A stretch of 64,000 nucleotides of DNA. Origin: Actinomadura coerulea. GTDB lineage: Bacteria > Actinomycetota > Actinomycetes > Streptosporangiales > Streptosporangiaceae. Below are positions 39,719 to 44,188 of the stretch, piece after piece. The stretch spans positions 1,426,001 to 1,490,000 of the forward strand of contig NZ_JACHMQ010000001.1 of the NCBI RefSeq assembly GCF_014208105.1, written 5' to 3'. The position numbers and the translations under genes were made by a program. Position 1 is the stretch's first letter. Each line of letters begins with the position of its first letter. The notes under the pieces were generated by a model. That model was given only the letters and a program-made list of their open reading frames with translations. It searched no databases and was not told the origin of the DNA.

Positions 39719-39729
39719 CGGAACGCGGG

Positions 39730-39764
39730 CGTGCCCCGGATCCTCGCGCGGGGTCCGGGGCACG
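39730..39764 (+). terminator. Hairpin terminator after pheT
   Basis: 14-bp arms at 39730-39743 and 39751-39764, with one G-T wobble, seven-base loop, starting 12 bases after the pheT stop. No T tract follows, as is usual for high-GC actinobacteria. Confidence 0.75.
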
Positions 39765-39799
39765 CTCGCGTCCCGGCCGAGACCAAGTCCTAACGCTAC

Positions 39800-39828
39800 T
39801 TGTGTTGCGATAGGCCGTCGGGTAGTCT
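39800..39828 (+). promoter_or_regulatory. Promoter of the ABC-F gene
   Basis: TTGTGT at 39800-39805 and TAGTCT at 39823-39828, with a 17-base spacer. It lies just after the pheT terminator and would start transcription near 39835, giving an untranslated leader of almost 200 bases. Confidence 0.65.
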
Positions 39829-39835
39829 CGACCGC

Positions 39836-40031
39836 GTCACATCGCCGCCCGGTAGGGGAGTCCATTGAGGATCTGAGGTCCGACACCGCGCAGTGGCCGC
39901 TCTCCGGCCCGCGCACGTGACCTCAGTGCGGACTCTTCCCCGCCGGGCTTTGCCATGCCCGCCGGCGCGTCGCGCGTTCCGCGGTGTCTCCATGCGTTCC
40001 GCATCTTTTTCACCACCATGGAGGCCGCCCA
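39836..40031 (+). promoter_or_regulatory. Structured attenuator-like leader of the ABC-F gene
   Basis: About 196 bases before the ABC-F start. CTGAGGTC (39873-39880) pairs perfectly with GACCTCAG (39919-39926), and GAGTCC (39858-39863) with GGACTC (39930-39935). GACACCGCG (39882-39890) pairs with CGCGGTGTC (39980-39988). A small hairpin ATGCG-TTC-CGCAT at 39992-40004 is followed by CTTTTTC, resembling a terminator. AGGGGAG at 39854-39860 precedes a possible three-codon ORF (TTG AGG ATC TGA, 39865-39876). ABC-F resistance genes in other bacteria are controlled by ribosome-mediated attenuation, so drug-dependent read-through is the favoured inference. Confidence 0.55.
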
Positions 40032-41648
40032 ATGTCATTCGCCATCGTGTGCTCGGACCTGTCGTTCGCGTGGGAGGACGGCACCGTCGTGCTGGACGGG
40101 CTGGACGCCGCGTTCGGCACCGGCAGGACCGGCCTGATCGGCGTCAACGGCTCCGGCAAGTCGACCCTGCTGAGGATCATCGCCGGCGAGCTGCGCGCCG
40201 GGTCGGGCACCGTCAGCGTCGACGGGGAGACCGGCTACCTGCCGCAGAACCTCGTCCTCGACGACACCGCCACGGTCTCGGACCTGCTCGGCGTCACCGC
40301 GACCCGCGCGGCCCTGCACGCGATCGAGCGCGGCGAGGCCACCGAGGAGAACTTCGCCGCCGTCGGGGACGACTGGGACGTCGAGGAGCGCGCCGCCGCC
40401 GAGCTCGACCGGCTCGGCCTCGGCCACCTGGGGCTCGACCGCACGGTCCCCACGCTGTCGGGCGGTGAGGCCGTGATGGTCGGGCTGGCCGCGCGGTTCC
40501 TGGCCCGCCCCGACGTCCTGCTGCTCGACGAGCCGACCAACAACCTGGACCTGGACGCGCGCGACCGCCTGTACGAGGCGGTGGAGACCTGGACGGGCGT
40601 GCTCGTCGTCGTCAGCCACGACCGGGAGCTGCTCGACCGGGTCGACGAGATCGCCGACCTGCGGGAGGGCTCCGTCCGGTCCTTCGGCGGCAACCTGTCG
40701 GGCTACGAGGACCTGCTCGCGGTGGAGCGGGAGGCCGCGGAGCGGACGGTCCGGGCCGCCGAGACCGACCTGCGCCGCCAGAAGCGCGAGCTGGAGGAGG
40801 CGCAGGTCAAGCTTGCCCGCCGTAAGCGCTACGGCAACAAGATGCAGGAGAGCAAGCGCGAGCCGAAGATCGTGATGGGCGAGCGCAAGCGGCAGGCGCA
40901 GGTCTCGGCCGGCAAGCACCGCATCATGCACGAGGAGCGGCTCGCCGGCGCCCGCACGCGGCTCACCGAGGCCGAGGGGGCCGTCCGCGAGGACGCCGAG
41001 ATCCGCGTCGAGTTGCCCGCCACCCGCGTCCCGGCGGGGCGGACGGTGCTCACCGTCACGGGTCTCGCCGCCCCCGAGCCGGAACCCGGCACGCTGGAGG
41101 AGCTGATCGTCCGGGGACCGGAGCGGATCGCGCTGGTCGGGCCCAACGGCTCGGGCAAGACCACGTTCCTGCGGATGCTCGTCGGCGACGGCGTCCCCGA
41201 GGGCGCGGCCGTGAAGATCGGGGTGGACGGGGTGCGGTATCTGCCGCAGCGGCTGGACGTCCTGGACGGTGACCTCAGCGTGGCCGAGAACGTCCGGGCG
41301 CAGGCGCCGTCCGCGCCGCCGGCGCGGATCCGGGCGGGGCTGGCGCGGTTCCTGTTCCGCGGCGCGCGGGCCGACCAGCCGGCCGGGACCCTGTCGGGCG
41401 GCGAGCGGTTCCGCGCCGTGCTGGCGTCGCTGCTGCTCGCCGAGCCGGCCCCGCAGCTGCTCCTGCTGGACGAGCCGACGAACAACCTCGACATGGCCAG
41501 CGCCGCGCAGCTCGGGCAGGCGCTCGCGGCCTACGAGGGGGCTCTGATCGTGGTCAGCCACGACGTGCCGTTCCTGCGCACTCTCGGCATCACCCGCTGG
41601 TTGCGGATGGACCGCTCGTGCGGCCTCACGGAGGTCGAGCCGATGTAG
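40032..41648 (+). CDS. ABC-F family ATPase (ribosome-protection type)
   Basis: 538 residues with two ABC domains and no membrane segment. The first has Walker A GVNGSGKST (residues 37-45), signature LSGGE and LLLDEPTNNLDLDARD; the second has GPNGSGKTT near residue 370, LSGGE and LLLDEPTNNLD. The linker between them (about residues 235-310) is a long basic helix pair, the part that reaches the peptidyl-transferase centre in resistance ABC-F proteins. Housekeeping EttA-like roles are the alternative. The ATG at 40032 has GGAGG seven bases upstream. The long leader favours an inducible resistance factor. Confidence 0.87.
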   Translation: MSFAIVCSDLSFAWEDGTVVLDGLDAAFGTGRTGLIGVNGSGKSTLLRIIAGELRAGSGTVSVDGETGYLPQNLVLDDTATVSDLLGVTATRAALHAIERGEATEENFAAVGDDWDVEERAAAELDRLGLGHLGLDRTVPTLSGGEAVMVGLAARFLARPDVLLLDEPTNNLDLDARDRLYEAVETWTGVLVVVSHDRELLDRVDEIADLREGSVRSFGGNLSGYEDLLAVEREAAERTVRAAETDLRRQKRELEEAQVKLARRKRYGNKMQESKREPKIVMGERKRQAQVSAGKHRIMHEERLAGARTRLTEAEGAVREDAEIRVELPATRVPAGRTVLTVTGLAAPEPEPGTLEELIVRGPERIALVGPNGSGKTTFLRMLVGDGVPEGAAVKIGVDGVRYLPQRLDVLDGDLSVAENVRAQAPSAPPARIRAGLARFLFRGARADQPAGTLSGGERFRAVLASLLLAEPAPQLLLLDEPTNNLDMASAAQLGQALAAYEGALIVVSHDVPFLRTLGITRWLRMDRSCGLTEVEPM

Positions 41649-41703: not shown

Positions 41704-42543
41704 TCAGGTCAGCACGCGCTTGGTGAAGGTGCGGGTCGCCCCCCACGTCAGCAGGACCGTCCCGCCGACGATGGCGAGCATGAACGCCCACACCGGCATG
41801 TGCGGGATCTCCGGCGTGAGCGCGCTGCGCAGCCCCTCGCTCACGTACACGAGCGGGTTGAACAGGCTGAGGATCTGGAGCCAGCGGATGTTGTCCAGCG
41901 CCGACCAGGGGTAGTAGACGCAGCCGAGCATCGTCATCGGCAGCAGGACCATCGCGAACAGCATCTGGACCTTCTGCGGGTTCATCAGCGTTCCGAGGAG
42001 CAGCCCGCCGGACGCCGACATCAGCGCCCCGACCACCATCACGGCGATCAGCACCGGCCAGTTGTCCACGTGCACCTCGGGCGACTGCCCGTCGGCGTGG
42101 ATGAACAGCACCGCGGGGAACACCAGCAGCCCGCCGATCAGGCCCTGCACCGCCGCCGCGATGATCTTCTGGACGGCCAGCAGCGGCACCGGGACCGGCG
42201 CCAGCGCACGGTCGGTGATCGACTTCTGCCAGTTCAGCTCCATCATCAGCGGGAAGATCACCGCCATCATCGCCTGCATGATGATCGACGACCCGACGAG
42301 CCCGGGCAGCAGGATGGTGGAGAACGTGGGCCCGCCAGGCCCGCCCGCCATGGCGCCGCCGCCGAGCTTCGGCAGCACGTAGGCGAACACGAACACGAAC
42401 ATGACCGGCTGCACCAGCACCCGGACGAACGTGGACAGGAAGTTCTTGCGCATCACCCGCGCCTCGCGCGCCATCATCGCGGCGAACGTGCGGGGGACGG
42501 TGGCCCGCGCCGGCGGCGGCGGTGCCAGAACGGTGACGCTCAT
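41704..42543 (-). CDS. ABC-2 type permease (DrrB-like)
   Basis: 279 residues with six predicted membrane helices, including LVQPVMFVFVFAYVLPKLG, FSTILLPGLVGSSIIMQAMMAVIFPLMM and the ABC-2 signature region MLGCVYYPWSALDNIRWLQ. This topology matches the DrrB group of actinobacterial drug exporters. It is the membrane part of the transporter whose ATPase is encoded next upstream. ATG at 42543 with GGAGGAAAG upstream. An intercistronic hairpin separates it from the ATPase gene, which may set the ratio of the two subunits. Confidence 0.88.
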   Translation of the reverse strand: MSVTVLAPPPPARATVPRTFAAMMAREARVMRKNFLSTFVRVLVQPVMFVFVFAYVLPKLGGGAMAGGPGGPTFSTILLPGLVGSSIIMQAMMAVIFPLMMELNWQKSITDRALAPVPVPLLAVQKIIAAAVQGLIGGLLVFPAVLFIHADGQSPEVHVDNWPVLIAVMVVGALMSASGGLLLGTLMNPQKVQMLFAMVLLPMTMLGCVYYPWSALDNIRWLQILSLFNPLVYVSEGLRSALTPEIPHMPVWAFMLAIVGGTVLLTWGATRTFTKRVLT

Positions 42544-42597
42544 TGCTTTCCTCCATCGCGGCCACGAATCGTGGCAGGAGTGATGCTTCTGGTGACG

Positions 42598-42626
42598 CCC
42601 GGTCGGTGAGAACTGAACCGACCGGG
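42598..42626 (-). terminator. Intercistronic hairpin between transporter ATPase and permease genes
   Basis: Perfect 10-bp arms at 42598-42607 and 42617-42626 with a nine-base loop, in the 130-bp gap inside the operon. It may be a partial terminator or an RNA-processing stop. A smaller palindrome (GGGTT/AACCC) lies at 42641-42652. Confidence 0.45.
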
Positions 42627-42673
42627 TCTACCGCTGGGCTGGGTTGAAACCCGTTGCTTGGGCAGGGACGGGG

Positions 42674-43642
42674 TCAATCGCGGTAGTCCCTTCCGGTGAG
42701 GGAGAGGAAGACGGTCTCCAGACTGGGACGCAGTTGGCTGGCGTCGGTGACTCCGACGCCGGCCACGGACCCGATTTCCACGAGCTCGCCGAGGATCCCC
42801 TCGGGCTCGGCGGCGAACACGCGCACCTGGCCGTCGTTGACCTCGACCTTGCTGATGCCCTCCCGGTCGGCGAGGGCCTTGATCCCGTCGGGGGCGGGGG
42901 AGTCGTAGGCCACGGTGATGACCGTGTCCGCGCCGGCGCTGGACTTCAGCTGGTCCACCGTGCCGCTGGCGAGGACCTTGCCGTGGTCGACGACGGCGAC
43001 CCGGTCGCAGAGCGCCTCGGCCTCCTCCATGTAGTGGGTGGTGAGCAGGATCGTCTGCCCGCCCGCCTGGAGCCCCCGCAGAACGTCCCAGAGGTTGGTG
43101 CGGGTCTGCGGGTCGAGCCCGGCGGTCGGCTCGTCCAGGAACAGCACCTCGGGGCCGTGCATGAGGGCGCGGCAGATCATCACGCGCTTGGCCTGCCCGC
43201 CGGAGATCTCGAACGGGTTGCCGCCGCGCTGCTCGGTCAGCCCGAACAGCTCCAGCAGCTCGGCGGCGCGCTTGCGGGCGTCCCGCGCGCCGAGCCCGAA
43301 GTACCGGCCGCGGAACTCCAGGTTCTCGGCGACGGTGAGGTCGCTGTCGAGCGTGTTGTTCTGCGAGACGACGCCGATGCGGCGCTTGATCTCGACCGCG
43401 TCGCGGACCACGTCCAGGCCGGACACGCTGGCGGTGCCGCCGGTCGGGACGACGAGCGTGGTGAGCATGCCGATGGTGGTCGACTTGCCCGCGCCGTTCG
43501 GGCCGAGCAGGCCGAAGAACTCGCCGCGCGGGACCTCCAGGTCGATGCCCTGGACGGCGGGCACCGCCGGACGCGGGCCGGACGCGGGATAGGTCTTCTT
43601 CAGGTCGACTGTGCGAACGGCGGTTTCGGGGGGATTGGTCAC
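42674..43642 (-). CDS. DrrA-like ABC transporter ATP-binding protein
   Basis: 322 residues. Walker A is LGPNGAGKSTT, the signature is ISGGQAKRVMI (Gln in place of the common GGQ/R context is normal for DrrA-type proteins), Walker B is VLFLDEPTAGLDPQ, and the H loop follows in LLTTHYMEEAE. The C-terminal part matches the DrrA extension that regulates the transporter. The GTG start at 43642 overlaps the MarR stop by four bases (GTGA), so regulator and pump are translated together. Confidence 0.92.
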   Translation of the reverse strand: MTNPPETAVRTVDLKKTYPASGPRPAVPAVQGIDLEVPRGEFFGLLGPNGAGKSTTIGMLTTLVVPTGGTASVSGLDVVRDAVEIKRRIGVVSQNNTLDSDLTVAENLEFRGRYFGLGARDARKRAAELLELFGLTEQRGGNPFEISGGQAKRVMICRALMHGPEVLFLDEPTAGLDPQTRTNLWDVLRGLQAGGQTILLTTHYMEEAEALCDRVAVVDHGKVLASGTVDQLKSSAGADTVITVAYDSPAPDGIKALADREGISKVEVNDGQVRVFAAEPEGILGELVEIGSVAGVGVTDASQLRPSLETVFLSLTGRDYRD

Positions 43643-44136
43643 GCGCCGTCTCCCTTTCCTTCTTCGTCGGGGGAGTAGTTCTCGAACTTGTGGATCAGCT
43701 TGAGCAGGAACCGGCGGACGGCCGCCTCGTCGTCCTCGCCGACGACGTCGTAGAGGCCGGAGAGGTCGCGGCCGATGGGGCCGGACTTCTCGGCGAGGAA
43801 CCGGCGGCCGGAGTCGGTGATGAGCAGCATCACGCCGCGCCGGTCACGGTAGGAGCGCTCGCGCCGGACGTGGCCGTTGCGCTCCAGCGTGTCGACGACC
43901 GAGGTGACCGTGGCGGGGGTGACCATCAGGCGCTTGGCGACCTCCCCGGGGCGCAGGCCGTCCTCGACGATGAGCAGGCGGAGCAGGAAGAAGCCCGCCG
44001 GGCTGATGCCGTGCCGCTCGATGATGCGCCACACGATGGGGCCCGACAGCCGTGAGGCGGCGCCGAAGAGCCGCCCGATCGGCCACTCCTCCACGGGACC
44101 GAACGTCTTCAGGTCGTCGAGGCCGGGGTTCTCCAT
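43639..44136 (-). CDS. MarR family regulator
   Basis: 165 residues with a winged helix-turn-helix: helix GLRPGEVAKRLMVTPATVTSVVDTLERNGHV and wing RERSYRDRRGVMLLIT. The start at 44136 (ATG) has no ribosome-binding site, but a good promoter ends seven bases upstream, so a leaderless message is predicted; a TTG at 44172 would sit inside the -35 box. It heads the operon with the DrrAB-like exporter and probably represses it until a drug or metabolite binds. Divergent to argC. Confidence 0.88.
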   Translation of the reverse strand: MENPGLDDLKTFGPVEEWPIGRLFGAASRLSGPIVWRIIERHGISPAGFFLLRLLIVEDGLRPGEVAKRLMVTPATVTSVVDTLERNGHVRRERSYRDRRGVMLLITDSGRRFLAEKSGPIGRDLSGLYDVVGEDDEAAVRRFLLKLIHKFENYSPDEEGKGDGA

Positions 44137-44143
44137 GCGAGCG

Positions 44144-44188
44144 ATGTTAGGGCCCTGATGTTTAGATAGCAAATCATTAGATACCTAA
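44144..44188 (-). promoter_or_regulatory. Leaderless marR promoter with overlapping operator
   Basis: On the minus strand TTGCTA (44172-44167) and TAACAT (44149-44144) are separated by 17 bases, and the marR ATG lies seven bases after TAACAT. Immediately upstream, TTAG-GTAT-CTAA (44177-44188) is an inverted repeat, and TTAGATA occurs twice nearby. The patch is AT-rich in a GC-rich genome. This is the expected layout for autoregulation by a MarR dimer. Confidence 0.7.

Follow-up and report, generated by a model that had tools for sequence, protein, structure and literature searches.

The leader in front of an ABC-F gene of Actinomadura coerulea is very probably an ortholog of the Streptomyces coelicolor are5sc leader and, like it, a ribosome-mediated attenuator for a gene of ARE5 type. 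The window in which it lies is a stretch of 64,000 nucleotides from a genome of 8.19 Mb in a single contig, and the leader takes up about 196 bases before the ATG at 40032, a length given in an earlier note on this DNA; its conservation is far above background. A conserved Shine–Dalgarno (SD) sequence with a tripeptide upstream open reading frame (uORF), mutually exclusive conserved pairings, and the orthology with are5sc strongly support the core claim of attenuation, and they also support the earlier note, which had proposed that this ABC-F gene lies behind an attenuator that senses drugs. We infer the drug response in Actinomadura from the Streptomyces leader, and by the same analogy lincosamides, streptogramin A, and pleuromutilins would be the expected inducers. 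The earlier note had also named macrolides among the drugs to try; erythromycin, however, causes no stalling on the Streptomyces are5sc uORF (PMC12421871).

The gene (40032–41648, plus strand) encodes a protein of 538 amino acids. The protein has two ATPase domains and no membrane part, in accord with ABC-F architecture, and ABC-F models and solved ABC-F proteins match it over its whole length. Its best curated matches are ribosome-protection models, each below its own cutoff: NF000355 (general ABC-F protection) gives 334 bits versus 380 and NF000171 (TlrC/CarA/OleB/SrmB) gives 213 bits versus 800, both being models without ARE5 specificity. Assignment to ARE5 is putative and is based on the shared leader and on the ~66% identity to Streptomyces relatives. 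The product is probably an Are5sc-like, ARE5-type ribosome-protection ATPase, with a presumed resistance activity. A protein search found its close relatives in Actinomadura species.

In S. coelicolor, are5sc (SCO6720) has a 232-base leader with overlapping uORFs, MLV with a TTG start and MRS/LRS (PMC12421871). In the presence of lincosamides, pleuromutilins, or streptogramin A, ribosomes stall on the MLV uORF, and antibiotics induce transcriptional fusions to are5sc (PMC12421871). The window leader can be aligned with Streptomyces leaders that carry MLV and LRS uORFs, and in the Streptomyces relatives of the window gene the uORF frames match the published are5scL1 and L2. The uORF of these relatives is TTGCTCGTCTGA (MLV; TTG CTC GTC TGA), overlapped by CTGAGGTCCTGA (LRS; CTG AGG TCC TGA). 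When the sgRNA target published for are5sc served to search for SCO6720, the best matches had two mismatches and were found at the expected protein site, in keeping with the assignment but not decisive for it. On the alignment and the matching uORFs, the window leader is taken as the Actinomadura ortholog of the are5sc leader, with the link to SCO6720 itself resting on the identity of the uORFs.

The likeness between the two systems covers the ARE5-type ABC-F gene, the long leader (the published 232 bases and the window's 196 or so), a TTG-start tripeptide uORF with its TGA stop inside CTGAGG, and terminator/antiterminator folds, which in the window are predicted ones. The long-range helix C and helix A, described below, are common to the Streptomyces relatives. 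The differences lie in the tripeptide, which is MLV there and MRI (or MRN, MKN, MEI, MEN, MEF, MRF) in Actinomadura; in the overlapping LRS frame, which has no stop in Actinomadura (CTG AGG TCC GAC); and in the outer stem and anti-SD sequence, which are unlike.

The uORF of the window reads TTG AGG ATC TGA (MRI; 39865–39876, plus strand). It was absent from the earlier note, as were the outer stem (39847–39852/39943–39948) with its T run and the anti-SD helix. All 61 aligned Actinomadura leaders have the form TTG-NNN-NNN-TGA, 60 of them counted with a regular expression and L033 read by eye. Variation is restricted to codons 2 and 3, where M is followed by R, K, or E and then by I, N, or F; MRI occurs in 36 of the 61, followed by MRN, MKN, MEI, MEF, MEN, and MRF. 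The SD of the uORF, GGGGAG (39855–39860, plus strand), is found in 60/61 leaders, with the one exception (L033) carrying an inserted A to give GGGAGAG. The base opposite the A of GGGGAG is unpaired in 27/61 leaders, and leaders without the pairing partner still retain the SD, so its conservation is not explained by the needs of pairing.

The uORF is also maintained over greater distances. In a second set of 80 loci, taken from a genome scan with the ABC-F protein, a pattern search found the tripeptide uORF at the same place in 78; an in-frame 3-base insertion gives L168 a frame of four residues, and at L103 no leader could be recognized. Reading frame and start codon (TTG or GTG) are maintained across families, with GTG AGG ATC TGA in Nonomuraea and TTG GAG ATC TGA in Planobispora. 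A second clade of ABC-F genes, found in other genomes, whose products share 57–62% identity with the window protein, repeats the leader plan; its uORF TTG CGC/CGT ATC TGA spells MRI with other arginine codons (L232–L239 and L225) and in L239 ends in TAG.

These changes bear on whether the conserved leader could be a small-molecule riboswitch or another RNA structure that works independently of the ribosome. That start type, frame, and stop persist through the TTG/GTG, AGG/CGC/CGT, and TGA/TAG changes argues against it, and the TTG is invariant within an unpaired loop while the six bases after it vary, an invariance for which structure alone is no explanation. A riboswitch would suit the very high sequence conservation of the leader and the pseudoknot-like topology of helices A and C. 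Nevertheless, an Rfam search with the leader returned no family match, only rRNAs, and the Streptomyces counterpart acts through ribosome stalling (PMC12421871), leaving a ribosome-independent structure as a highly improbable explanation for what is best read as an attenuator.

The three pairs of complementary segments listed in the earlier note are exact in the sequence. Pairing A joins CTGAGGTC (39873–39880) to GACCTCAG (39919–39926) over 8 bp, pairing B joins GAGTCC (39858–39863) to GGACTC (39930–39935) over 6 bp, and the long-range pairing C joins GACACCGCG (39882–39890) to CGCGGTGTC (39980–39988) over 9 bp. The outer stem is formed by GCCCGG (39847–39852) and CCGGGC (39943–39948); all of these arms are on the plus strand. 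In the 61 leaders, pairing A is 98.8% paired (99.1% across families) and pairing B 91.4%, the outer stem is paired in 96.7% of cells, and A, B, and the outer stem together are 96% paired with three compensated pairs. Four sequences show a G-C to A-U compensation in A, and the outer stem has double-sided changes at two pairs. Helix C is 100% paired in the 61 leaders, compared with 25–65% when it is slid by 1–3 columns. Its 3′ arm is near-invariant and covaries with the 5′ arm: At 2/9 pairs (8 cells) A-U has become G-C on both sides, which 0/500 shuffles reached, and in the second ABC-F clade the helix is changed on both sides to CACCACGCGG/CCGCGTGGTG. The checks for covariation and conservation proposed in the earlier note thus came out in favor of the pairings, with compensatory changes in A and C and retention in 62/65 same-genus genomes.

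Folding the leader alone, another of the proposed checks, gave −82.3 kcal/mol (z = −2.34 versus dinucleotide shuffles). In the free fold of the window sequence, the uORF hairpin and the anti-SD hairpin are formed (P about 0.99–1.0) and helix C is absent. When 39850–39881 is masked to mimic a ribosome sitting on the uORF start codon, C goes from P 0 to 1.0 and both A and the outer stem from about 1.0 to 0. The 5′ arm of C begins immediately 3′ of the region that a ribosome stalled there would cover. Over the 61 leaders, the mean P for downstream pairing of the C arm goes from 0.01 to 0.77 with the mask and is 0.15 with a control mask; in 62 Streptomyces leaders, it goes from 0.20 to 0.79, with a weaker contrast to the control mask (0.57). 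This modeling supports a two-state switch driven by a ribosome on the uORF.

In the proposed mechanism, ribosomes would clear the MRI uORF quickly when drug is absent, allowing the uORF region to fold into a long hairpin (outer stem, B, and A), and transcription would stop at the T run after 39948. In any transcripts that read through, the ABC-F SD would stay paired with the anti-SD strand. A drug that binds the peptidyl-transferase center (lincosamide, streptogramin A, or pleuromutilin) would stall a ribosome at the uORF start, and the footprint of the stalled ribosome (about 39850–39881) would cover the 5′ arms of the hairpin, blocking the terminator. The segment 39882–39890 would then pair with 39980–39988 and thereby open the anti-SD hairpin at its outer end; the ABC-F protein made would clear the drug from ribosomes.

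Among the conserved elements, the uORF-sequestering hairpin at 39847–39948 with its T run is the most likely site of transcriptional shut-off, since runs of 3–6 T follow the hairpin in most relatives; the window has only TTT after CCGGGC (39943–39951, plus strand). The hairpin spanning 39845–39955 has a predicted energy of −59.9 kcal/mol. We infer the exact terminator position from hairpin energy and T-run counts, and with the terminator placed there a short drug-free transcript would be expected to end near 39950, not 40011. Without the terminator, GGGC at 39945–39948 has an alternative partner in GCCC (39957–39960, plus strand), part of a conserved GGGC–T-rich–GCCC arrangement, and this hairpin appears in the masked fold. 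The earlier note had placed termination further downstream, at a small hairpin, ATGCG-TTC-CGCAT, followed by CTTTTTC (39992–40010, plus strand). The hairpin and its T run do exist in the window, where they form a canonical terminator-like site and the only such match of a simple scan, but the terminator role assigned to them did not carry over to the 61 aligned leaders: Most relatives lack the T run yet retain the remainder of the leader, which makes termination there very unlikely.

A second level of control may be added by the anti-SD hairpin, acting on translation. The anti-SD strand GCGGT..CTCCATG (39981–39994, plus strand) pairs with CATGGAGGCCGC (40017–40028) and in the predicted fold sequesters the ABC-F SD region CATGGAGG (40017–40024, plus strand). 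The hairpin has an energy of −17.2 kcal/mol, and its 7-bp core (39988–39994/40017–40023) is 90.8% paired in the 61 leaders, with weaker covariation, at one pair. Because the 3′ arm of helix C is transcribed after the proposed terminator, the helix cannot act on termination there; its effect should come at a later step, when it takes apart the outer portion of the anti-SD hairpin. In the masked fold, the core of the anti-SD hairpin is still largely formed (about 0.8) and mean SD accessibility goes from 0.06 to 0.10 only, so that the modeling lends weak support to release of the ABC-F SD through helix C.

This nearly unchanged accessibility tells against a purely translational attenuator, in which the large hairpin is no terminator and a stalled ribosome would free the ABC-F SD by way of helix C, as do the T run directly 3′ of the hairpin in most leaders and the response of the related are5sc leader in transcriptional fusions (PMC12421871). 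A case for the translational reading can be made from the short T runs, from helix C, which is the best-conserved pairing and shares bases with the strand extending the anti-SD hairpin, and from S. coelicolor tiaA, where regulation appears to be translational (PMC12421871). One leader (L058, in genome G005) likewise favors it, in that the uORF and helix C persist there although the 3′ arm of the outer stem and its T run are gone; this leader offers a natural test of the terminator's role. Overall, a wholly translational switch is unlikely, and transcriptional attenuation at the uORF hairpin is preferred.

The leader was found by BLAST in 61/65 same-genus genomes, and a covariance model adds one more (G041), for 62/65. 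The remaining three hold only a homolog that is 54–56% identical, compared with 80% for that of G041; these genomes seem to be without an ortholog of the ABC-F gene, and the leader therefore appears to go with the ortholog. A second BLAST match in one genome (G053, C1:7870204) proved unrelated, with no uORF and no ABC-F gene there. Outside the genus, the same leader precedes 63–71% identical ABC-F relatives in Planobispora, Nonomuraea, Thermomonospora, and Streptomyces. Most of the leaders that a cross-family model (R2) finds belong to the family of the window or to a second one, taken to be the Streptomyces family. The R2 matches examined with E up to about 5e-6 all lie before ABC-F homologs, as do two weaker ones (G659 and G094) from those two families. 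The other weak matches examined (E > about 1e-5) came from other families, had no adjoining ABC-F gene, and were rejected as false positives. The source genome contains about six further ABC-F-like genes (G000 contig C1: 2311267, 7763831, 1961491, 7265938, 7460286, and 4119777), and the leader covariance model matches the window's copy only, not these other loci.

Two other attenuators share parts of this plan. The cplR leader of Clostridioides difficile has the consensus uORF MR(I/M), sequesters the uORF in a 5′ hairpin and the SD in a 3′ hairpin, forms an antiterminator upon stalling, and combines transcriptional with translational attenuation (PMC10201436). It belongs to another ABC-F group and phylum, the likeness being one of plan, and its terminator is the SD hairpin with poly-U (PMC10201436), whereas in the window the uORF hairpin is the likely one. 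The lmrC gene of Streptomyces lincolnensis is likewise an ARE5 ABC-F gene under ribosome-mediated transcriptional attenuation, induced by lincosamide, streptogramin A, and pleuromutilin; it differs in that terminator formation needs translation of uORF2 and in lying within an antibiotic gene cluster (PMC8546547).

The earlier note had suggested that such an attenuator might be undescribed in this organism. No description in Actinomadura was found in the literature, although the leader family is known from Streptomyces; what is new here is that the leader occurs in Actinomadura and the form it takes there, along with its tripeptide variants and the support from covariation, the class itself being already described. 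The range of a drug-sensing RNA switch tested in Streptomyces now takes in Actinomadura and several further genera, which shows the depth to which the sensor is conserved. About 140 natural tripeptide uORF variants are now available, making it testable whether drug specificity in ABC-F induction depends on the codons that follow the start. It is conceivable, as a tentative wider picture, that this is an old switch retained by ABC-F genes of two actinobacterial families and of two paralog clades, that the two variable codons (MRI, MRN, MKN, MEI, and MEF versus MLV) tune the inducing drugs, that MRI was independently reached in Clostridia, and that helix C is a conserved translational step.

The leader would be transcribed from a sigma-70-like promoter. 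The hexamers TTGTGT (39800–39805) and TAGTCT (39823–39828) reported earlier are present with their 17-base spacer at 39800–39828 on the plus strand, and the −10 form TAnnnT is kept in the 61 relatives. Conservation of the leader begins at 39836 in these relatives, and transcription probably starts near 39834–39836. Just inside, the near-invariant CATCGC (39840–39845, plus strand) can pair with GCGGTG (39981–39986) as a second possible partner of the long-range arm; in the 61 sequences, RNAalifold pairs the corresponding columns, with many C-G/U-G alternations.

The surroundings provide several further observations. The −35 element is overlapped by an imperfect inverted repeat, CTAACGC-TACTTGTGTT-GCGATAG (39790–39813), the CTTGTGTnGCG core of which is kept in 33/61 relatives, some with a perfect TTATCGC/GCGATAA; the source genome has one close match only. 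This repeat may serve as the operator of an additional regulator acting on the leader promoter. A strong inverted repeat, GTGCCCCGGATCC...GGGTCCGGGGCAC (39729–39766), lies between pheT and the leader promoter and is probably the pheST terminator. In the list of open reading frames, a long frame begins at 39893. From reading of the translations, pheS–pheT lie upstream of the ABC-F gene, and an ABC-2 exporter, a MarR-type regulator, and argC lie downstream. The exporter permease, its ATPase, and the MarR-type regulator adjoin the ABC-F gene on the minus strand (41704–44172) and are a possible second drug-response unit.
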